From Ensifer adhaerens (lineage in GTDB: Bacteria; Pseudomonadota; Alphaproteobacteria; Rhizobiales; Rhizobiaceae): a stretch of DNA of 64,000 bases. Of the stretch, positions 25,419 to 39,554 are shown piece by piece. The stretch is from the NCBI RefSeq assembly GCF_001270265.1, contig NZ_LGAP01000002.1, positions 248,001-312,000 on the forward strand. Reading direction: 5' to 3'. Below the pieces are notes generated by a model, which searched no databases, had not been told where the DNA came from, and saw only the letters and a program-made list of their open reading frames with translations. Made by a program: the position numbers and the translations under genes. Every line of letters begins with the position of its first letter. Within the stretch, counting starts at the first letter, position 1.

Positions 25419-26465
25419 TCAGAGGGTCGCCAGCGCCCGGTTCGACAGGGCTCCGCCATAGGCTTCGCGAATGGCGAGCTTGTTTTCAAGCGCGATTACG
25501 ATCTCTTCGGCGAAATCGATCGCATGCAGGGCCCGAATGGATTGCAGGCCGCCGGGCGTGAAGACATTGATCTCCAGGATCTTGTCGCCGACGATATCCA
25601 GGCCCACCAGGAACATGCCGTCGTCGATGAGTTTGGGCCTCAGCTTTTCGGCAATCGCCAGTATGGCCGGGGTAATGGTGGCCGCCTGGGCGGTGCCGCT
25701 CGCGTGGATGTTGGACCGCACCTCGCCCTTGGCAGGAACACGCCGGAAGGCGGCATAGACGTCGTTGCGAACCAGCGGGCGGCCGTTCATCAGGAAAAGC
25801 CGGATGTCGCCGGCAGTGGCTTCGGGCAGATAACTTTGGGCGATCAGATATCCGACTTCGCTGACGGCTTCGAAGATCTGGTTGAGGTTGGCTTCGTCAC
25901 TGGATTTTATCTTGAAGACGTTCTTGCCGCCCGAGCCCTGCAGCGGTTTCAGGATAACGCCGTCACGATGGTCGTCGATGAAGGCGCGGATCTCTTCGAT
26001 GTTTTTCGAGATCAGCGTCGTCGGGCGCACGGCCTGGGGGAAGTCCTGAAAATAGAGCTTGTTCTGCGCAAGCGAAAGGCCGGACGGATCGTTGACGACG
26101 ATCGCGCCGCGCTCCGAGGCGACGCGACCGAAGTTCGCGCCGACATTGGTGGCCCAGGGCCGGCCCTCCGCATCTTCGGAGGGGTCGTTGCGCAAGAACA
26201 GCACGTCGATCTCGCTGATGTCGACCACGCTCATTTTCGCGTCGTCGGCCTTCAGGGCTGAAATGAAGGTCTCCGGCTTCTTCGGCTTCGTGCCGTTGAG
26301 GCTGCGCGCCCGGATCATCAGCGTGTCGTCGGGCCGCAGGATGAAATCCCCTGGGGTGGCATAGCAGATCTCGTGCCCTCGGGAGAGTGCGGCGAGCGCC
26401 AGCGACGTCGTCGTATAGGACGCTGTCTCGGTCTCGATGGCGTTGACGAAGAAGGCTATGCGCAT
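25419..26465 (-). CDS. Glutathione-synthetase-like ATP-grasp ligase
   Basis: The 348-residue protein has an N-terminal pre-ATP-grasp Rossmann part and a C-terminal ATP-grasp fold with GVILKPLQGSGGKNVFKI near residue 169 and a metal-binding end, FLVGLDIVGDKILEINVFTPGG. It resembles GshB/RimK-type carboxylate-amine ligases, which activate a carboxylate as acyl phosphate and join it to an amine. It is the last gene of a three-gene unit and starts 8 bp after the QEGLA metallopeptidase. This context argues for a specialised ligase rather than housekeeping glutathione synthesis. Confidence 0.87.
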   Translation of the reverse strand: MRIAFFVNAIETETASYTTTSLALAALSRGHEICYATPGDFILRPDDTLMIRARSLNGTKPKKPETFISALKADDAKMSVVDISEIDVLFLRNDPSEDAEGRPWATNVGANFGRVASERGAIVVNDPSGLSLAQNKLYFQDFPQAVRPTTLISKNIEEIRAFIDDHRDGVILKPLQGSGGKNVFKIKSSDEANLNQIFEAVSEVGYLIAQSYLPEATAGDIRLFLMNGRPLVRNDVYAAFRRVPAKGEVRSNIHASGTAQAATITPAILAIAEKLRPKLIDDGMFLVGLDIVGDKILEINVFTPGGLQSIRALHAIDFAEEIVIALENKLAIREAYGGALSNRALATL

Positions 26466-26473
26466 CAGGTCTC

Positions 26474-28393
26474 CTACTCTGCGACCATGTCGAGCGGGGC
26501 AATTCCCCCACGTGCCCGGTCCAGCCGGGCGCGTGCATGGGCGTCATCCAGAAAGATAGGGCGCACCGCCGGCGCACCCAGCAAGCCGCGCAAGCTCAAC
26601 TCTTGCATGGCGGTAAAATGCGAGGCGGCGATCTTGCCCATCCAGAAGGGTTCGAGGCTGCCGCCGGCGGCCAGGTGGGCAAGCAGTTGAAGAAGACCGC
26701 GCAGATAGATGGCGTCCTTTGCCAGTCCGCCGCCGCGATAGATCCGCAGAACGATATTGAAGGCGTCGTTCGGTTGAAATCGATGCTGATCGACGAGCAG
26801 CCGATATGTCTCCGGGAAAAGCGCACCGTTCAGCATCGCCGCGCAGGCAACCACACGGGCCGCGATGAGACGCAGACGCGCCAGCGTCATGCCGCCGCTC
26901 AAATACTCGGCAAACACGGCGAGCCCCTCCTGCATGCCCTCATAGCCCGCCAGACCAGAGCGGAAGAGCCGCAGTCCCTGCGCCGAGCCGTTGAAGTAGG
27001 TCAGCAGATGCACGCCGATTTCGTGATTGAGCAGGGCCTCGACACGGTGCCGGCTCATCGTTGTGCTGCGCGCAATCAGAAGCTGGCTTCTCGACACCAG
27101 CATTCCGGCGGGAATGTCGTCGCGCAGCTCCACCGAGGCGGTGAAATCGGCATATTGCCGCTTGTAGGCCGAAACCATCGTTTGCGCCCGGTTGCGAACA
27201 TAGGCGCAATCCACGTCGTCAACCACTGGCTTCTGCCTGGGCTCGCCGACCCGCTTTTGCGTTCGCATCAGGATGTCCGTCGCGACATCCAAAAGTTTGG
27301 CCTCGACCGGACCGTAGAGTGCCCGACCGAGTTCGACGAACGTGCGGCCTTCGCGGGCCGAGATCATGGAAAGCTGCAGGTCGAGTTCCTGTTGCTTCTG
27401 GCGATAGAGCGCGTAGAGGAGCGGATCTTCGAGGTGCTCGAAGCTGATGGAAAAAAGCTTCTTCTTCGCGGCCTCGACTTCAAGCGTCAGCGGCCGATAG
27501 AGCAGCCGCGGGCTGACTTCGTACCGGCTCGAAGCAAATTCCGCTAAGGCGGCATCGGCATTGATCGGTGTTACCGCCAAGAGGAAATCGAAGCTCGAGG
27601 CAATCTCGTCGATGGCGCGGTCGGTGCGTGTCACCGTCTCGACGAAGGTCTTTCTCCCGAAGGCCCGGTGCGTCGAAACGCTCGTGTCTGTCGCGCTTTG
27701 CGTCGCTGCCGCCAGCGCCTTGAGACCGGCATCGAAGATGTTGGCAATCAGGCGTTCCCGCAGCTCCGGATAGATCCTCCGGGTTCCCGGCTCGCGATAG
27801 ATCGGCGCAAATCGCACGCGGATGTGAGGGAATGTTGTCAACGGCTTGCCGCCGGTTTCTTTTGCCGACTGCGGCGCGAGCAGGTCCATATGGGCGGTGC
27901 GAAACTTTCCTTCGATCGTGCTGACGGAGCCGACGAAGGCTTTCGCGGCGGCCTGCGCCACCGGGTCTTCGCCGGCGGTGACCTCAATGGTGAAAGGCGG
28001 CAGATAGGGTGCATCTTTGGTAGGTGGATCGTCGTGTTCGAGTTCGCCGTATTCGAGCACGAAGAAGGCGCCGAGCCGCTGGCGAAGCACGCCGCCGACC
28101 GCCTCGACAATAGCTGTCGCCGCCGTGGAGTCCGGTGCGATGAGGTAGGACGCATTGGACTGGGTGATTTCGCGTGCGACGGCGGCGTGCTTCGCCTCAG
28201 CAATATGCACGCAGAGAAAAGGCAGCGGTCGATCGATGTGCAGGCGCCCGCCCCTGGCAAAGTCGCGCCGCACCGCCTTGCCGGCCTGAAGGCAGGCGAT
28301 GATCTCGCCGAGCCTCCGGTCATCGGGTCCCTGGCGGTCGCCTTCCGGATGATCGGTAAGGTCGCGGTTTCTTTGGGTGGCAGCACTCTTCAT
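26474..28393 (-). CDS. DUF1704 'QEGLA motif' putative metallo-carboxypeptidase
   Basis: A 639-residue protein of the DUF1704 family, often labelled flavohemoglobin expression-modulating QEGLA protein. It carries a zinc-binding HEIGVH at residues 457-462 and MQEGLA with Glu489 as the likely third ligand, 31 residues later. The eukaryotic members of this family are the MATCAP carboxypeptidases that remove C-terminal residues of tubulin, so a carboxypeptidase activity is plausible here. The name linking it to flavohemoglobin is a family label only. Its start overlaps the amidohydrolase stop as ATGA. Confidence 0.88.
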   Translation of the reverse strand: MKSAATQRNRDLTDHPEGDRQGPDDRRLGEIIACLQAGKAVRRDFARGGRLHIDRPLPFLCVHIAEAKHAAVAREITQSNASYLIAPDSTAATAIVEAVGGVLRQRLGAFFVLEYGELEHDDPPTKDAPYLPPFTIEVTAGEDPVAQAAAKAFVGSVSTIEGKFRTAHMDLLAPQSAKETGGKPLTTFPHIRVRFAPIYREPGTRRIYPELRERLIANIFDAGLKALAAATQSATDTSVSTHRAFGRKTFVETVTRTDRAIDEIASSFDFLLAVTPINADAALAEFASSRYEVSPRLLYRPLTLEVEAAKKKLFSISFEHLEDPLLYALYRQKQQELDLQLSMISAREGRTFVELGRALYGPVEAKLLDVATDILMRTQKRVGEPRQKPVVDDVDCAYVRNRAQTMVSAYKRQYADFTASVELRDDIPAGMLVSRSQLLIARSTTMSRHRVEALLNHEIGVHLLTYFNGSAQGLRLFRSGLAGYEGMQEGLAVFAEYLSGGMTLARLRLIAARVVACAAMLNGALFPETYRLLVDQHRFQPNDAFNIVLRIYRGGGLAKDAIYLRGLLQLLAHLAAGGSLEPFWMGKIAASHFTAMQELSLRGLLGAPAVRPIFLDDAHARARLDRARGGIAPLDMVAE

Positions 28394-29214
28394 TGGCGTG
28401 CATCCAGTGCCTTGACGAGACCGGGTACGGTTGACGCCGTCAGCGCGCGCAACGCCTCAAGCACCTCGAAATCCGGCTCGCCGGTCCATTCGTCCATGAA
28501 GAATTTCTTGAACTCGATGGCGATCGCACAACCCGTTTGCGGAAAGTGCTCATGAATGAAACGTGTCTGTTCGCCGCGACCCTGAAACGCGACGTTCTCG
28601 CGAACGTCGAATCGCCTGCCCCGAAATTCGAAGCGTCGAAGGGCGTTGAGCAACGTCTCAAGCACATCCGCCCAGCGGCTGCGGTCCATCGAATGGGTGC
28701 CGATGTTGATTTCGGGCGCCCCGGCGGGGTCGGAAGGGGTGGCGTCCGGTCCGTCGCGGCGGTGGTTGTAGCTGTGTACGTCCAGGACGATGAACCCGCC
28801 ATGCCGCCGCTCGATCGACAGCAGCATCGACCGCAGCATGCGATAATATTCGTCATGCAGGACGAGCGAGCGCTCGTGAAGCCCGCGGGGAAGCGCATCT
28901 CGCCAGACGGAAAGCCCCCAGGCTTGCGATGGATCGACGTAGACCGCACCGTCGCGGGCACGGTTGAGATCGACCTCGAAGCGCGAACGATGCACGATTA
29001 TCCGATTTGCCAGGTCCTGAATGATATAGGCCGTGTAGGGGTCTTCTTCCCGCAGGCGCTGGTCGTCGGACAACGCCACGAGCGAGCGGAGATCGGCGCG
29101 CAGGCCATGCCCGTCATGTATCGCCGTGCCGACAATGGGGATATCGCCACGATGCACCGTCCACCAACCGTCTTCATCGACGTGCTGTCGCTTCTCACCT
29201 GTTTGATCAAGCAT
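28390..29214 (-). CDS. N-formylglutamate amidohydrolase-family protein
   Basis: This 274-residue protein matches the N-formylglutamate amidohydrolase (HutG-like) fold: VHRSRFEVDLNRAR near residue 75 holds the substrate/metal region, and VLDVHSYNHRR near 142 the metal-binding histidine. The family hydrolyses N-formyl-L-glutamate or related N-acyl amino acids with a metal ion. The ATG at 29214 follows AGGACCCGGAT; an ATG at 29289 lacks a ribosome binding site. It is the first gene of the unit with the QEGLA protein and the ATP-grasp, and no histidine-utilisation genes are near, so a role outside histidine catabolism is likely. Confidence 0.85.
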   Translation of the reverse strand: MLDQTGEKRQHVDEDGWWTVHRGDIPIVGTAIHDGHGLRADLRSLVALSDDQRLREEDPYTAYIIQDLANRIIVHRSRFEVDLNRARDGAVYVDPSQAWGLSVWRDALPRGLHERSLVLHDEYYRMLRSMLLSIERRHGGFIVLDVHSYNHRRDGPDATPSDPAGAPEINIGTHSMDRSRWADVLETLLNALRRFEFRGRRFDVRENVAFQGRGEQTRFIHEHFPQTGCAIAIEFKKFFMDEWTGEPDFEVLEALRALTASTVPGLVKALDARQ

Positions 29215-29454
29215 ATCCGGGTCCTGTTCCTCCCTCGTCGATGCCCTTGCGGTCTGGTTACAATTCGCGAGCGACCGGTTCGGTTCCAAGTGCAGCTGAA
29301 TTCGCGTCGCGAGCTGAAGCGGGGAACGGGAGCCATAGGCGTTGACGCCACGGCCGTCGCAGCTAGCCGCGAGTTTGCTGCTGGACGGGCGGCGGAACCA
29401 ATGCGGCTCCGCTGCATTTTCCCAACACGTAACAACGTATTAGGGAATTGAGCC

Positions 29455-30668: not shown

Positions 30669-31031
30669 TCACTTGCCGGTCAGCAGGGCCTCGACGGTGC
30701 GGATGAGGTCTTGACTGTTGAACGGCTTGGCGAGGCGGGGAAGACTGCGATACTGCTCGGGAAGGTCGGACGCGGCGTAACCGGTTAGCAACAGTACCGG
30801 AACGCCTCGGGCGAGGAACTCGTCCGCTACGGGGTAGACGAACTCGCCGTTGAGATTGACATCGAGTGTCGCCGCCTGAGGGGTCTCCCGTTTTGCCGCC
30901 GCGATCGAACTGCGCAGGCTGGTGAATGGACCGATGACCGCGAAGCCGGCGGCCAACAGATCATCCTGGATCTGGATCGCCAGCAGATACTCGTCTTCGA
31001 CAACAAAGACGCTGCGTTGTCCGCCATTCAT
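30669..31031 (-). CDS. Single-domain response regulator
   Basis: A 120-residue receiver domain without output domain. The acidic pair is at residues 12-13 (VVEDEY), the phospho-acceptor is Asp57 in TLDVNL, the switch threonine sits in LLTGYA and the conserved lysine in LAKPF. Its ATG overlaps the stop of the HWE kinase gene (ATGA), so the two are surely a pair. It most likely acts by protein contact, as FixJ-less stress-response receivers do in rhizobia. Confidence 0.9.
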   Translation of the reverse strand: MNGGQRSVFVVEDEYLLAIQIQDDLLAAGFAVIGPFTSLRSSIAAAKRETPQAATLDVNLNGEFVYPVADEFLARGVPVLLLTGYAASDLPEQYRSLPRLAKPFNSQDLIRTVEALLTGK

Positions 31032-34000
31032 CGTTCAGCACCTGCGGAGTAGGGCATTTTGATCGTGTACCTCAAGCCGCTCTTGGCAAAATCCAGTTCG
31101 ACTTCGCCGCCGAGGTCCGCGCCAACGACGCGTTCGAGCAGCAGCCGGCCAAACCCGTTTCTCGAAGGCGACGCTACGGCGGGTCCCCCCGTTTCGCACC
31201 AATCGATATGAAGCGCCTTGTTGACGGGGTCCAGGCTCCAGCTGACGTCCACATGCCCGCTCTCCACCGAAAGCGCGCCATGTTTCGCCGCGTTGGTTGC
31301 AAGCTCGTGGGCGGCCATGCCAAGGGCAAGCGCGTGCCTTGGCGACAGCATGATCGCTGGACCGCCGAAGGAGACATTGCCGGCATTCTCGTTCTTGTAG
31401 GGTGCCAGCTCGTCGCAAAGGATCGTTTCCAAGGAAACCCCGGCCCAGGTCGCCTCCGCAAGCCGGGTATGCGTCTGCGCCAGTGCCCGGATACGGGCAT
31501 GGAACGATTGCTCGGCCTCCTTGCGGTCGGGGGTCATAGCGAAGGACTGGCGGGCAATTGAGGTGACCGTCGCCAGCGTGTTCTTGACGCGGTGGCTGAG
31601 TTCGGCGACCAGCAGATTGCGCTGGGACTCGGCATCCTTTCGTTCGGTAATGTCCATGCAAACACCGGCCAGACGCTGCGACGACGAACCTGCTCTCGGC
31701 AGAAAACGCCCGAACGCTTCCAGCCAGCGAATGGAACCGTCGGGGCGGCAGATGCGATAGGATGTGTGGTAGTCCTCCCGCGTGTCGATCGCGGTCCGGA
31801 TTTCTAGCTCGACCATGGCGAGGTCATCCGGATGGATGTCGGCCTTGAAGTCATCCAGTGTGCCGCCGAAGGTACCCGGTTCCAGTCCGTGAAGGGCTTC
31901 CAGGCCCGGCGACCAAATCACCTTGCCGGTGTCGAAGTTCCATTCCCACGCCCCCATCCGGCCGGCTTCGAGCGCCATCTGCAGCCGCCGCTCGCCGTCG
32001 CGCATTGCCTGTTCGTTCTCCTTGCGCTCGGTGATGTCGACGAATGCGGCGACGGCGCCTTGCGGAATCCCCAAAGCATCAAACAGCGGCGTGGCATTGC
32101 CCAGGAGATGCCGGGACGTGCCGTCGTCAAAGCGGATCTCCTGTTCGAAGTTTCGGACCTCTTCACCGCGCGCAGCGCGTTGGACGGGCATTTCGTCCGG
32201 CGACAGCAAACTGTCCTGCGAATAGACCTTGAAGTGCACGGGCCTTTCGCTTGCCGGTGCCGAGAGCGAAGGATTGCTGTCGGGCGGCAACCGCAGCAGT
32301 TCGAACGAACTTCTATTGCCGCTGATGACCCGGCAATCCGGGGTCCTGGCAATCCAAATCGGGGCAGGCACCGCTTCCATGAGCGCAAGCACCTCCGTCG
32401 CCCTGGCGCGCTCCTTTGCCTCGTTGTGCCGCAGCAGATCTTCGGCTCGCCGTCTTGCCTCTTCTGACCGGATGCGCTGCACGCTGAAGCTCAGCTGGCG
32501 TGCAATGGTCAGCGCGAGATCGATTTCGGAACCGGCGAAGTGGTGCGGCGTGTCATAATAGGTCATGAATTTGCCGATCAGCCGGCCGGCCGAAACCAGC
32601 GGGATGAAACCGAGCGCTCCGATTCCTTCGGTTTCAACGGCCTTGCGCAGGTCGTCCGAGATGTCGGCCAAGTCGACATCTTCGATAAGGATCGGGTTGG
32701 GATCCTGTGCCTCCGCGCCCCACGGCGTGTGACCATCGACAGCGTGGCGGTAGCTTTCCGAAAGCCCGCGGGACGCGACAAAGCGCATGGTACCGGTTTC
32801 GTCGATGAGCAGAATGGATGCCCGGCTGCAGCGCAGCGCCGACTGAATGGCATCAAGCGCCGCCTCATAGACGGCGGCGATCGAACGTGCGCGATGCACC
32901 CGCTCAGTGAATTGATAGAGCGAGGCCTGCTCCCGCAAGCGCTCGGCGAGCGCCAGTTCGGAAGCCTTGCGCTCGCTGATATCGCGGGCAATCTTCGAAG
33001 CGCCGACGATGCGCCCATCGTCATCAAGGATCGGCGATATCGTGAGTGAGATGTCGACGAGGGTGCCGTCCTTGCGTTGTCGTCTGGTCTCATAGTGATC
33101 GACACGTTCGCCTCTGCGAATGCGGTCGAGGATCTGCACCTCTTCGTCCTCATGGCCTTTCGGAATGAGGCGCATGATCGGCGTTCCCACCATCTCCTGC
33201 ACGCTATAGCCGAACAGCGCCTCGGCGCCCCTGTTCCAACTGGTGACGATGCCGTTCAAATCCTTGCTGACGATCGCATCGTCGGAGGATGAGACGATCG
33301 ATGCGAGGTGGCGGGCCGAAAGCTCGGCGATCCGGCGGCTCTCGGTTTGTCTTTGGCTGTCGGCGAGCAGTCGGGCATTGTCGATGGCGATTGCCGCCTG
33401 GGCGGCGATGGCAACGACGACGTCCTCGGAATCGCGGGTAAAGACACCCGGTGCGTCATGACCGAAGAACAGTCCGCCGAGCACTGCCCCGGAGCGGGCG
33501 ATCACCGGAACAGCAAGGTAGCTGACAACGGGCAAATGCCCTTGCGGCATGCCGAAATGCGGCTCGCTCAGCCCGTAACGCGGGTCCTTGCGGATATCGT
33601 CGCTGCGCACGACCCGTTCACCCTTGAAGGTCGGCGCGAATACGGCCGTGTTGCGGGGCAGGCCGAGTTTCTCGAAGGCTTCCCGCGGAGCTCCAGACAG
33701 GGTGAAGAGCTGGAAATGCTCTCCGGTCTCATCGACGACGGTGTAGAAAAACGCCCCGAATTTCGCACCAGTGAGTTCGGTGGCGCTGTCGGTCACAGTC
33801 TGCACGATATGCTCGACATTGAGGTCGCTGGACAGAAGCCTGGAGATGCGATCGAGCGCCTGAATACGGTTGGTCTTGGCGCGCAGTTCCTGTTCCGCCG
33901 CCTTGCGTTTGCCGATGTCGATGAGGACGTTGACGGCGCCGATCATCTCGCCTTCTGCATCGAAGATCGGCGTCGGGTAGGGAAGCACCGGCACCATCGC

Positions 34001-34321
34001 TCCATCCGGGCGCGCGACGATCAGTTCCTCGCCACGAACGGCGCGCTTGCTGCGAAGCGCCTCGGCCATCGGGCACTGATCGGCCGGCAGCCCGGTGCCG
34101 TCGGGGCGATGCAGGCGCCAACAGACGCACCAGCGGTCGGCATTGAGCCGCGGTTCGCGCCCCGCCAATTCTGCCGCGGCGCGATTGAAATAGGTGACGA
34201 CCCCAGCTGCATCCGTGGTGTAGATCGCGATGGGAAGGCTGTCGAGAATCGCTCTGGATTCAATCGTCTGCGACCCCGCTGCGCCCGCCAGCGCTGCCGC
34301 CAATGCTTCTGCGCGGCTCAT
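31028..34321 (-). CDS. Multi-sensor HWE-family histidine kinase
   Basis: In 1097 residues I see PAS (about 20-140), GAF (150-310), PAS (325-445), GAF (455-620), PAS (630-760), PAS (770-890) and a HWE-type kinase core. The phospho-acceptor is His910 in ELSHRVKN, the N-box is AHELATNAAKHGAL, and WCE in IDWCETGG matches the W-x-E of HWE kinases. There is no transmembrane segment, so it senses cytoplasmic cues, perhaps light or redox ligands through PAS/GAF; no cofactor cysteine signature for a bilin or flavin was recognised. It is coupled to the response regulator downstream. Confidence 0.9.
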   Translation of the reverse strand: MSRAEALAAALAGAAGSQTIESRAILDSLPIAIYTTDAAGVVTYFNRAAAELAGREPRLNADRWCVCWRLHRPDGTGLPADQCPMAEALRSKRAVRGEELIVARPDGAMVPVLPYPTPIFDAEGEMIGAVNVLIDIGKRKAAEQELRAKTNRIQALDRISRLLSSDLNVEHIVQTVTDSATELTGAKFGAFFYTVVDETGEHFQLFTLSGAPREAFEKLGLPRNTAVFAPTFKGERVVRSDDIRKDPRYGLSEPHFGMPQGHLPVVSYLAVPVIARSGAVLGGLFFGHDAPGVFTRDSEDVVVAIAAQAAIAIDNARLLADSQRQTESRRIAELSARHLASIVSSSDDAIVSKDLNGIVTSWNRGAEALFGYSVQEMVGTPIMRLIPKGHEDEEVQILDRIRRGERVDHYETRRQRKDGTLVDISLTISPILDDDGRIVGASKIARDISERKASELALAERLREQASLYQFTERVHRARSIAAVYEAALDAIQSALRCSRASILLIDETGTMRFVASRGLSESYRHAVDGHTPWGAEAQDPNPILIEDVDLADISDDLRKAVETEGIGALGFIPLVSAGRLIGKFMTYYDTPHHFAGSEIDLALTIARQLSFSVQRIRSEEARRRAEDLLRHNEAKERARATEVLALMEAVPAPIWIARTPDCRVISGNRSSFELLRLPPDSNPSLSAPASERPVHFKVYSQDSLLSPDEMPVQRAARGEEVRNFEQEIRFDDGTSRHLLGNATPLFDALGIPQGAVAAFVDITERKENEQAMRDGERRLQMALEAGRMGAWEWNFDTGKVIWSPGLEALHGLEPGTFGGTLDDFKADIHPDDLAMVELEIRTAIDTREDYHTSYRICRPDGSIRWLEAFGRFLPRAGSSSQRLAGVCMDITERKDAESQRNLLVAELSHRVKNTLATVTSIARQSFAMTPDRKEAEQSFHARIRALAQTHTRLAEATWAGVSLETILCDELAPYKNENAGNVSFGGPAIMLSPRHALALGMAAHELATNAAKHGALSVESGHVDVSWSLDPVNKALHIDWCETGGPAVASPSRNGFGRLLLERVVGADLGGEVELDFAKSGLRYTIKMPYSAGAER

Positions 34322-34411
34322 AATTCCCTCCGCAAGCGCTTGCTAACGCAGGGCAACGCGGCACAATGCGATTTTGTTCCGCTTGCGTCTTGACCCTAGA
34401 CCCAGCCGTTC

Positions 34412-35482
34412 TCAACGGCTTGAGGTCGCTGCACCGAGGATCAGCCGATTGACGAAGTCGAGCTTTTTGACAACCGGCTGCGATAGGACGAAGGGATAGC
34501 TGTCGGGCTGGCCCATCGACCGCTGGATGGCGTTGAGAGCGACGCTGAGCGGCACCCACGCCGCGACAATGACTTCTGCGCTCGCTGCCCGGTAGGGATC
34601 GAAGGCGATCTCGGCTTCGAGCGCACCATGCCCGACCGGGTCGAGATTCATGCCGAAGGCGCGCCCGGTCTCCAGCGCGTCGACGATGTGGAAGAGATGG
34701 GCCCAACACTCGGCGAAATCTTCTGACGGGTGGGCACTCGCATAGGGGCTGATGAACCGCTCCTGCCAGTCGTCGGGAGGGCCCTGTTGGTAGTGGCGCT
34801 CCAGTGCCGCCGCATAGTCCTGCGTTTCATCGCCGAACAGCGCGCGCGCCTCGGTCCTTGTTGCCTCGTCAGCAACGAGTTTCTGCCAATAGAAGTGACC
34901 GATCTCATGGCGAAAATGCCCGAGCAAGGAGCGGTAGGGTTCGTTCATGGAAACCCGCACGCTTTCGCGTAAGACGTCTTCCGCCTCGGAGGCGCGCAGG
35001 CTGATCAAACCATTCTCGTGGCCCGTTCGGGCGGGAATGGTGTTGCCGTAGGCGTCGACGGCGTCGGCGAGGAATTCGAACGCCAACCCGCCCTCCGGAT
35101 CCTGCTCGCGCGTGGGGTGCGGCAATCGCCAACGCAGCAGCGAGTAGAACAGGTGGCGCTGCGCCAGGCCTATTCTGCGCCAGCGTTCAAGGCCGACGCC
35201 GTCGGTCGTCGGCACGATGGTGTTGTGGCGGCAGGCGGCGCAGTATCGATCGGGCTGATTGGCCGGCACCAGCCAATGGCAGACATCGATGGCGGCGTTG
35301 TCGCAGAAACGAAAGGTCCGCGTTCCGTCGCCGTGGATCTGCCAGAGCCCGTTGTCGAGCGGCACCAGGGCGCGCATCGATAGATCGCCCGGATCGAATC
35401 CCAAGGTGGCCCCGCAACGCACGCAGCTGCGGTTTTCAAAGTGAATCGTCTGGCCACAGGCGCCGCACTGGAAGAGCCGCAT
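34412..35482 (-). CDS. Zinc-ribbon putative zinc metallopeptidase
   Basis: The 356-residue protein opens with a zinc ribbon (CGACGQ and CVRCGA, residues 7-25) and later has CAACRHN. HEIGHFYW near residue 190 is a HExxH metal site, and SEDFAECWAHLFH some 60 residues on supplies the likely third ligand. This matches the putative zinc-binding metallopeptidase family of proteobacteria, whose substrates are unknown. It lies upstream of the kinase with a 90-bp gap. No signal peptide is present, so it is cytoplasmic. Confidence 0.85.
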   Translation of the reverse strand: MRLFQCGACGQTIHFENRSCVRCGATLGFDPGDLSMRALVPLDNGLWQIHGDGTRTFRFCDNAAIDVCHWLVPANQPDRYCAACRHNTIVPTTDGVGLERWRRIGLAQRHLFYSLLRWRLPHPTREQDPEGGLAFEFLADAVDAYGNTIPARTGHENGLISLRASEAEDVLRESVRVSMNEPYRSLLGHFRHEIGHFYWQKLVADEATRTEARALFGDETQDYAAALERHYQQGPPDDWQERFISPYASAHPSEDFAECWAHLFHIVDALETGRAFGMNLDPVGHGALEAEIAFDPYRAASAEVIVAAWVPLSVALNAIQRSMGQPDSYPFVLSQPVVKKLDFVNRLILGAATSSR

Positions 35483-37917: not shown

Positions 37918-38931
37918 TCAGCCGTTGCGGAAGGTGTAGCCGTAGCCGTTGAGCGCCGGGGCGCCGCCGAGATGGGCGTAGAGAACCTTTGATCCCTCGG
38001 GGAAATAGCCCTTGCGAACGAGATCGATCAGGCCCTGCATCGACTTGCCCTCATAGACAGGGTCGGTGATCATGCCTTCGAGGCGGGCGCAAAGGCGGAT
38101 GGCCGCCTTGGTTTCGTCGGAGGGCACGCCGTAGACCGGATAGGCGTAATCCTCAAGCAGGACCACGTCCTCTTCGGTGAGCTCGGTGCCGAGTTCAACG
38201 AGATCGGCGGTCCTGCGGGCGATGTCGAGGACCTGTGCTTTTGTTTGGGCCGGTGTGAAGGAGGCGTCGATGCCGATGACGCGGCGCTGGCGTCCGTCCT
38301 TGGCAAAACCGACCAGCATGCCGGCATGGGTCGAGCCGGTGACCGTGCAGACGACGATGTAGTCGAACTTGAAGCCAAGTTCCTTCTCCTGCGCCCGCAC
38401 CTCCTCGGCAAAGCCGACATAGCCGAGCCCGCCATATTTGTGCACGGAGGCGCCGGCGGGGATGGCGTAGGGTTTGCCGCCATGCGCCTTGACGTCCTCG
38501 ATCGCCGCTTCCCAGCTGTGGCGGATGCCGATGTCGAAACCTTCGTCGACCATCTGGACGTCGGCGCCCATGATGCGGCTGAGCATGATATTGCCGACGC
38601 GGTCGTAGACGGCATCCTCGTGCGGCACCCAGCTCTCCTGAACGAGCCGGCACTTGAACCCGATCTTGGCGGCAACGGCGGCGATCATGCGCGTATGGTT
38701 CGATTGAACGCCGCCGATGGACACCAGCGTGTCGGCGCCGGAGCGGAGCGCGTCCGGAATGATGTACTCCAGCTTGCGCAGCTTGTTGCCGCCGAAGGCA
38801 AGGCCGGAATTGCAATCGTCCCTCTTGGCGTAGATCTCGACCTTGCCGCCTAGATGGCCCGAGAGCCGGTTGAGTTTCTCGATATGCGTCGGCCCGAAGG
38901 TCAGCGGGTAGCGTTCGAATTTTTGCAGCAT
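37918..38931 (-). CDS. acdS: 1-aminocyclopropane-1-carboxylate deaminase
   Basis: The 337-residue PLP enzyme splits ACC, the ethylene precursor of plants, into 2-oxobutyrate and ammonia. Lys50 in GGNK is the PLP lysine, and SNHTR follows near residue 77. The positions that separate true deaminases from D-cysteine desulfhydrases are Glu294 (PVYEGKS) and Leu321 (AHLGG), one less than in the Pseudomonas enzyme, so it should be a genuine ACC deaminase. GGAGGGAAC precedes the ATG. Its regulator acdR is divergent. In rhizobia it lowers host ethylene and favours nodulation. Confidence 0.96.
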
Positions 38932-39089
38932 GTTGTTCCCTCCTTCCGTCTTGAAAGTCAGGAAACGCTACCACCCATGATGTGAAAGGTGCTCTCTAAT
39001 ATCGTGTTAGAATTTTGTATTTCTCTAGGAATGCCGCGCCTGATAATAGATTGCATCCGTCTATTGCGCTAAAAGAGGAAGATTCTTTC
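38932..39089. promoter_or_regulatory. acdS-acdR divergent promoter region
   Basis: 158 bp between divergent starts. The AT-rich stretch TTAGAATTTTGTATTTCT at 39007-39024 is roughly midway and has the loose symmetry of an Lrp-type site, the expected target of AcdR. I see no NifA-type TGT-N10-ACA element. The operator call is inference from position and composition. Confidence 0.45.
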
Positions 39090-39554
39090 ATGCAAGGTGA
39101 ACTTGATCGTATCGATCTCAGGATGTTGCGTCTGCTGCAGAAGAACGGCCGGCTGACCAATGCGGAATTGGCGCAGATGGTGGATGTCAGTGCCGCGACG
39201 TGCCATCGCCGGACGCAGAGGCTGTTCGAGGAAGGCTATATCACCAACGTCCGCGCGCTCGTGGCGCCGCAGAAGGTCGATCGCGGCGCACTGGTCATGG
39301 TCGGCGTCGTGCTCGATCGGTCGACGCCGGAGAGTTTTCGCGACTTCGAAAAGGCGGTCGAAAAACTGAAGTTCATCCTCGACTGCCATCTCGTCGCCGG
39401 TGACTTCGACTACTTCCTGAAAATTCGCGTCGGCGACATGGCCGACTTCAATCGCATCCACGGAACGCAGCTGATTGCGCTGCCGGGCGTCCGCCAGACG
39501 CGGACATTCTTCGTCATGAAGGAAGTGGTCGACAATGCCGCTCTCGATTTCTGA
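39090..39554 (+). CDS. acdR: Lrp/AsnC-family regulator of ACC deaminase
   Basis: The 154-residue protein has an N-terminal helix-turn-helix (LDRIDLRMLRLLQKNGRLTN and VSAATCHRRTQRLFEEGYI) and a C-terminal RAM ligand domain (about 70-150, DFDYFLKIRVGD). The ATG at 39090 follows AGAGGAAG; an ATG 75 bp upstream lacks a ribosome binding site. Divergence from acdS is the standard acdR arrangement, where AcdR activates acdS and represses itself. Confidence 0.93.
   Translation: MQGELDRIDLRMLRLLQKNGRLTNAELAQMVDVSAATCHRRTQRLFEEGYITNVRALVAPQKVDRGALVMVGVVLDRSTPESFRDFEKAVEKLKFILDCHLVAGDFDYFLKIRVGDMADFNRIHGTQLIALPGVRQTRTFFVMKEVVDNAALDF

Follow-up and report, generated by a model that had tools for sequence, protein, structure and literature searches.

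We describe here a three-gene unit on the minus strand of a 64,000-nucleotide stretch of the Ensifer adhaerens genome (contig NZ_LGAP01000002.1, positions 248,001 to 312,000; hereafter ‘the window’), in which an enzyme of the N-formylglutamate amidohydrolase (FGase) superfamily, a DUF1704/MATCAP-type ‘QEGLA’ protein and a GshB-type ATP-grasp ligase are encoded one behind the other, from position 29214 down to 25419. The three genes are conserved together to an extent that exceeds chance, and in a few genomes the first two are fused within a single reading frame. We favour, tentatively and at a probability of about 0.45, a stress-linked unit that would make and trim a small glutamyl, glutathione-like peptide.

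All three open reading frames (ORFs) are intact: the FGase and QEGLA genes overlap through an ATGA (28390-28393), and eight bases (26466-26473) separate the QEGLA and ligase genes. The original prediction, an earlier annotation made from the letters alone, had given the limits of the unit, the overlap and the gap, and on re-reading of the ORFs all proved exact. We have set the start of the FGase gene at the ATG at 29214, an alternative TTG start at 29289 being possible. Comparison with loci L003-L006 indicates purifying selection on all three genes (ratio of non-synonymous to synonymous substitution rates, 0.05-0.13), and, since a hydrophobic N-terminus is absent in each by inspection, all three proteins are probably cytoplasmic.

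The arrangement is strictly kept. In the best 80 of 109 relatives of the QEGLA protein found in named genomes, all Rhizobiales by their titles, the FGase, QEGLA and ligase genes lie in this order and on one strand at every locus (80/80); a neighbourhood survey had been named beforehand as the place where the prediction might fail, and a conserved trio was found instead. Across 299 genomes of the phylum, the QEGLA model TIGR02421 is present in 29 and the ligase subfamily exceeds its cut-off in eight; seven of these also hold a QEGLA gene, adjacent each time, and the eighth ligase (G109) starts at base 36 of its contig. A sample of 199 genomes of the family holds the ligase in 18 and QEGLA in 19, all 18 having both, while in the nineteenth QEGLA genome (G468) the ligase is cut by the contig end. 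The hypergeometric p-values for this co-occurrence (3e-7 in the phylum sample, 1e-24 in the family sample) are inflated by relatedness and are indicative only. As for the FGase gene, it is present in 17 of the 17 QEGLA genomes examined in the family sample (out of 18 besides the window’s, G467 being left out of the count), with one copy cut by a contig end. Among the ligase-linked QEGLA copies of the phylum sample outside the window genome, it is a separate gene in four (L146, L147, L149 and L151; in L147 and L151 some 1.4-2 kb away), fused in one (L154) and beyond the contig end in two (L150 and L153).

Single ORFs of 661-665 amino acids, in which an FGase domain is followed by a MATCAP domain and both exceed their Pfam cut-offs, occur in G243 (L154), Photobacterium sp. 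GJ3 (L175) and Vibrio sp. HDW18 (L176). Directly upstream of the fusion in L154 and L175 lies a ligase of the same PRK12458 subfamily (480.1 and 476.2 bits against NF009110), and both of these ligases also exceed the glutathione synthase model NF003573 (284.6 and 280.2; cut-off 272). Taken together, gene order, co-occurrence and fusion bear out the three-gene unit as originally predicted. We note in addition that a DUF413 (MaoP) gene sits upstream of the fusion unit in G243 (L154:11448-12083) and in Vibrio sp. HDW18 (L176:2852-3211), and that the fusion at L176:3287-5278 carries DMYAYN in place of the D-x-HSYN of other FGase domains, so that a metal ligand may be missing from its FGase half.

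The first protein of the trio matches PF05013 (E-value 2.8e-23, 83.7 bits; cut-off 28.9), and its AlphaFold model (predicted local distance difference test score, pLDDT, of 92) has 2q7s as its best Foldseek match (E 5.7e-12), followed by 2odf. We class it as an FGase-superfamily enzyme, but not as HutG: it shares with HutG and other FGase enzymes the fold and ten family-wide residues, yet scores just 21.3 bits against the HutG model TIGR02017 (cut-off 278.75) and has conserved stretches of its own (REEDPFT, LDxHSYNHRR and EFKKFFMDE). The ten residues (H33, D58, R78, D82, N84, R85, H147, S148, N207 and E234) are common to the trio protein and to the products of the five other FGase genes in this genome, and would serve in zinc binding or catalysis. 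Further fold neighbours include the poly-gamma-glutamate hydrolase 5onj (E 8e-5), M14 carboxypeptidases and, weakly, CCP5 (rank 19, E 6e-3, TM 0.32).

The QEGLA protein exceeds the cut-offs of both PF08014 (E 4.8e-94, 315.8 bits; cut-off 27) and TIGR02421 (355.4 bits; cut-off 338.65). H457, E458, H462, Q488, E489 and G490 are invariant across 37 aligned sequences, the window’s included, with E489 the presumed third zinc ligand. A profile alignment with the human MATCAP chain 7z5g spans HEIG.H, EGLA and KD..YL, and the AlphaFold model (pLDDT 86) finds human MATCAP (7z6s/7z5g) as its best Foldseek match (E 5e-8, TMt 0.69). The protein thus has in common with MATCAP/TMCP enzymes (PF08014; bacterial group TIGR02421) the HExxxH motif, the downstream glutamate of EGLA and the fold; it differs from them in being bacterial, in carrying an additional degenerate domain, and in having its gene beside those for a ligase and an FGase.

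This additional domain lies within the roughly 250 residues that precede the MATCAP domain, for which a Pfam search returned no FGase match. We compared its profile with that of the FGases after removing all fusion proteins, comparisons bridged by fusions not being counted, and obtained a match at probability 87.8 (E 3e-6, score 46.7), against control scores of at most 18.1 for 20 column shuffles, 17.2 for the reversed profile and 13.2 for the MATCAP domain. The match spans FGase residues from about 124, and both H147 and E234 are replaced there; the stretch with H33, D58, R78, D82, N84 and R85 lies outside it and, when aligned with the fusion proteins, is mostly gap. On visual comparison, strands and helices follow one another in a similar order in the predicted FGase and QEGLA models, and 2q7s ranks eighteenth for the latter (E 0.11, prob 0.93), a match that is weak alone, other hydrolases and phosphorylases scoring similarly. 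The N-terminal third of the QEGLA protein therefore seems, on these profile comparisons, to be a dead, degenerate FGase-like domain, with the live FGase encoded next door.

The third protein matches both domains of glutathione synthetase (PF02955, E 2.2e-53; PF02951, E 5.3e-12), finds the structure 1gsa at E 1.3e-39, and scores 481.2 bits against NF009110/PRK12458 (cut-off 408). Judged against the positions common, at 90% conservation, to 23 GshB-like sequences from outside the trio, it keeps R-x-D-P, R222, R242, RSN and G257. With GshB (TIGR01380, NF003573) it has in common both domains, the ATP-grasp positions and the RxDP/RSN motifs; it differs in lying under both equivalog models while exceeding NF009110, in an insert near residue 102 that sets it apart from GshB-like sequences, and in an altered last loop (NVTSPTG to NVFTPGG), of which the T-to-G change is present in all 103 subfamily sequences. 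Vibrio-type relatives do exceed NF003573. In a midpoint-rooted tree of 126 sequences (one distant ATP-grasp from L165 excluded) the subfamily did not form one clade, the smallest clade with its 103 members holding all 126. A second GshB-like gene lies elsewhere in the genome, at 33% identity, and PMC3462692 simply counts PRK12458 as GshB. We class the ligase, on sequence comparison, as a GshB paralogue from a lineage of small-peptide ligases. The families named at the outset hold under Pfam and NCBIfam with two refinements, namely that the first protein is not HutG and that the third belongs to NF009110 within the GshB lineage; the HEIGVH and QEGLA motifs and the ATP-grasp motifs, described there as intact, correspond to residues that are invariant in the aligned family and to positions that are conserved in canonical GshB, respectively.

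A GGAAC-N19-TT element precedes the first gene, and GGAAC-N18/19-TT is the general-stress sigma motif of alphaproteobacteria. Within about -150 to +15 of the FGase start, as placed from the profile, it occurs in 58 of the 80 loci, which are related to one another, where random windows taken from these loci would give 1.7 and base shuffles 0.9. Sites of this form are listed in Table 1 of PMC6180224. According to PMC3616915, the RpoE2 regulon of S. meliloti responds to heat, starvation and both osmotic and oxidative stress; PMC10308900 has a QEGLA gene of Photobacterium damselae among those upregulated (27.5-fold) at 1% versus 3% NaCl. The window genome has two NepR genes; one NepR locus (L199) shows the motif in both orientations around base 1375, and a search for a sigma-70 promoter between 25200 and 29600 found none. 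We infer that an EcfG/RpoE2-type sigma factor may transcribe the trio under general stress. Divergent from the trio is a small ORF from 29456 (+), starting MLGTVLLIVLILLLI, with its own GGAAC-N19-TT upstream at 29394-29419 (+); it resembles DUF3309, and the two sites may form a divergent promoter pair of the stress type.

Features of the three-gene unit in the Ensifer adhaerens window (positions are those of the window).
Feature	Position	Strand	Basis or remark
FGase-type metallo-amidohydrolase, 274 aa, predicted active	28390..29214	-	PF05013, fold, shared residues
DUF1704/MATCAP ‘QEGLA’ protein, long form, 639 aa	26474..28393	-	PF08014, TIGR02421, fold
GshB-type ATP-grasp ligase, PRK12458 subfamily, 348 aa	25419..26465	-	NF009110, 1gsa, shared positions
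MATCAP-type metallo-carboxypeptidase domain, aa 285-628	26510..27541	-	PF08014 coordinates; alignment with human MATCAP
HEIGVH motif, aa 457-462	27008..27025	-	ORF translation, alignment
QEGLA motif, aa 488-492	26918..26932	-	ORF translation, alignment
Apparently degenerate FGase-like N-terminal domain of QEGLA protein, ~aa 30-240	27674..28306	-	profile comparison
EcfG/RpoE2-type promoter motif GGAAC-N19-TT	29262..29287	-	47 bases between motif and first-gene ATG

The original prediction of a pathway that would add, trim and deacylate a glutamate- or glutathione-like tag or metabolite is supported in part, namely in its gene unit, its families and their intact residues. Synthesising these observations, we propose that the trio would form a single cytoplasmic set of enzymes, its genes transcribed in general stress, for joining and trimming a peptide of the glutamyl type. 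In this model, the GshB-type ligase would couple, at the expense of ATP, an amino acid or amine with the free carboxylate group of an acceptor resembling a gamma-glutamyl dipeptide; the MATCAP-type metallo-carboxypeptidase would take off the C-terminal residue, and the FGase would hydrolyse the amide on the glutamate side. Probably, the live FGase is docked through the dead FGase-like domain of the carboxypeptidase, which would let both hydrolases act on one molecule. A ligase and two hydrolases encoded in one operon, with the hydrolases fused elsewhere, suggest one common substrate, and since named enzymes of both the GshB and the FGase lineages handle small glutamyl molecules, a small glutathione-like peptide is favoured over a protein tail. 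For Vibrio vulnificus, one table of PMC3091676 lists VV2_1203 (COG3930) and VV2_1204 (glutathione synthetase) in succession, with no comment in the accompanying passage.

Several observations pull in the other direction. The window ligase lies under both glutathione synthase models (NF003573, 219.1 with a cut-off of 272; TIGR01380, 204 with a cut-off of 299.05), and solitary ligases over the NF009110 cut-off occur in two trio-bearing genomes (L189:7989-9035 and L193:8624-9664). The partnership also has its gaps: no FGase was found in the 2.7 kb between the ligase/QEGLA pair of L152 and the contig end, the long-form QEGLA copy L148 has neither FGase nor ligase and is flanked by an AstE/AspA-type gene, and the fusion of Vibrio sp. 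HDW18 lacks both H147 and an adjoining ligase. As for the stress link, the motif was not found in the tested stretch of 22 of the 80 loci, and the window’s own site ends in GAATTG, not CGTT. Finally, the MATCAP enzymes with measured activity, namely the eukaryotic TMCP/MATCAP proteins, act on tubulin tails, according to PMC10499314.

This last point leads to the strongest of the alternatives, a ‘writer’ and two ‘erasers’ working on a protein or peptide tail, which we nonetheless consider unlikely. The eukaryotic tubulin tail cycle employs the same kinds of enzyme as the trio, namely TTL/TTLL ATP-grasp ligases, MATCAP and CCP. Here the ATP-grasp would add residues to C-terminal or side-chain carboxylates of a protein, the MATCAP-type enzyme would remove the last residue, and the M14-like FGase would remove side-chain glutamates. 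The shared MATCAP homology, motifs and fold speak for such a scheme, as do the M14 enzymes (and, weakly, CCP5) among the FGase fold neighbours; the CCP5 match itself is weak, however, the ligase is of GshB, rather than RimK/TTL, lineage and the M14-like partner also comes from a different lineage, so that the likeness is one of analogy only.

The genes around the trio bear on this question from both sides. In the distant family f48, a PF05618 putative zinc protease, a PF14400/14402 seven-transmembrane (7TM) protein and a PF14397 ATP-grasp related to RimK follow the ligase in L149, L150 and L153, and the protease and 7TM protein do so in L194, which would sit well with tail modification; this cassette, also a ligase with a hydrolase like the trio but of different families, adjoins the ligase in four of six f48 ligase loci, none being seen at L151 and L152, whose genome holds PF14402 just once, at the L150 place. 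PF14402 is present in 47 of the 299 phylum genomes and in 19 of the 29 with QEGLA, where 4.6 would be expected (relatedness not removed), and a search of the window genome returned no match. Against the tail scheme, no candidate substrate gene was found beside the trio, though the substrate could be encoded elsewhere: neighbouring ORFs of at least 90 amino acids in L003-L082 gave no cluster beyond 35 of 80 loci (the largest 35, 24 and 14), under a loose single-linkage grouping into unannotated clusters that may include spurious antisense ORFs, and small ORFs (35-95 amino acids, within 900 bases of the trio, blastp 1e-6) gave none in more than 11 of 80. On the former count we also set aside a conserved extra gene beside the trio.

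A second alternative, which we hold to be distinctly improbable, is salvage or detoxification, in which stress would give rise to amino acids that are acylated or conjugated to glutathione, the hydrolases would degrade these, and the peptide would be rebuilt by the ligase. The stress-type promoter motif and the ratio of two hydrolases to one ligase are consistent with this, as is the AstE/AspA-type deacylase beside the L148 QEGLA copy; against it, no conserved uptake or conjugation gene could be identified beside the trio among the unannotated neighbour clusters, an objection blunted by the sugar-type ATP-binding cassette (ABC) transporter that follows the trio in S. meliloti. L148 merits a remark of its own: this is a second QEGLA copy in G093 (L148:8158-11110), with the deacylase upstream in the FGase’s place, a possible swap of partners.

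Bolder, and in our view a little more doubtful again, is the notion of a bacterial ‘tail code’, in which a stress-controlled operon would bring together a ligase and both erasers, of the kinds seen in eukaryotic tubulin tyrosination and glutamylation, to act on a bacterial protein or peptide tail; the dead FGase domain would scaffold the erasers, and eukaryotic MATCAP would have descended from such a system. A carrier-protein pathway after LysW/LysX, whose logic likewise pairs an ATP-grasp (here loading an amino acid on a carrier tail) with a metallo-carboxypeptidase (releasing the product), is scarcely credible: this shared logic and a weak LysX_arch match of the ligase (34.5 bits, far below the cut-off of 275.6) speak for it, but no small ORF of the kind surveyed above recurs in more than 11 of 80 loci, a search that covered carriers encoded beside the trio rather than elsewhere.

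A role in defence was considered and set aside: PADLOC anti-phage models gave no match to the three proteins at E 0.01, the QEGLA protein had none among 50,697 phage records, and 32 pattern stretches in viral contigs contained no relative. Further along the window, an HWE histidine kinase with PAS/GAF domains and a receiver-type protein (under the Pfam cut-off) are encoded at 30669-34321 (-), with GGAAC..CGTT at 34380 just upstream, and the surroundings of this kinase may be stress-related. A putative zinc metallopeptidase (PF15887) with a zinc ribbon follows at 34412-35482 (-); 37918-38931 (-) and 39015-39554 (+), which by their opening residues we take to be an ACC (1-aminocyclopropane-1-carboxylate) deaminase-like gene and a divergent Lrp-type regulator, are presumably ordinary plant-association genes.

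Each of the three families is known singly; their assembly is poorly described. The amidoligase survey of Iyer et al. (2009) may cover such neighbourhoods. In the literature searched, with most subscription journals outside it, we did not find the trio, the fusions or the promoter motif described, and term searches of PMC2651895 and PMC8877191 returned nothing on the trio. New here, then, are the fusions beside the ligase, the apparently degenerate FGase-like domain, the stress-type motif and the f48 cassette next to the trio; the first three of these, and the place of the ligase as a GshB paralogue, were absent from the original prediction. Within the same literature, no reaction was found for these bacterial relatives of the tubulin detyrosinase, which are called ‘flavohemoglobin expression-modulating QEGLA protein’. 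From operon conservation and domain fusion, the two partners of the QEGLA protein can now be named, as can the class to which the substrate is likely to belong and the condition under which expression is likely. Since the trio occurs, on pSymB at about 1,122,940-1,126,750, in the laboratory strain Sinorhizobium meliloti 1021 (L173), its function is directly testable.

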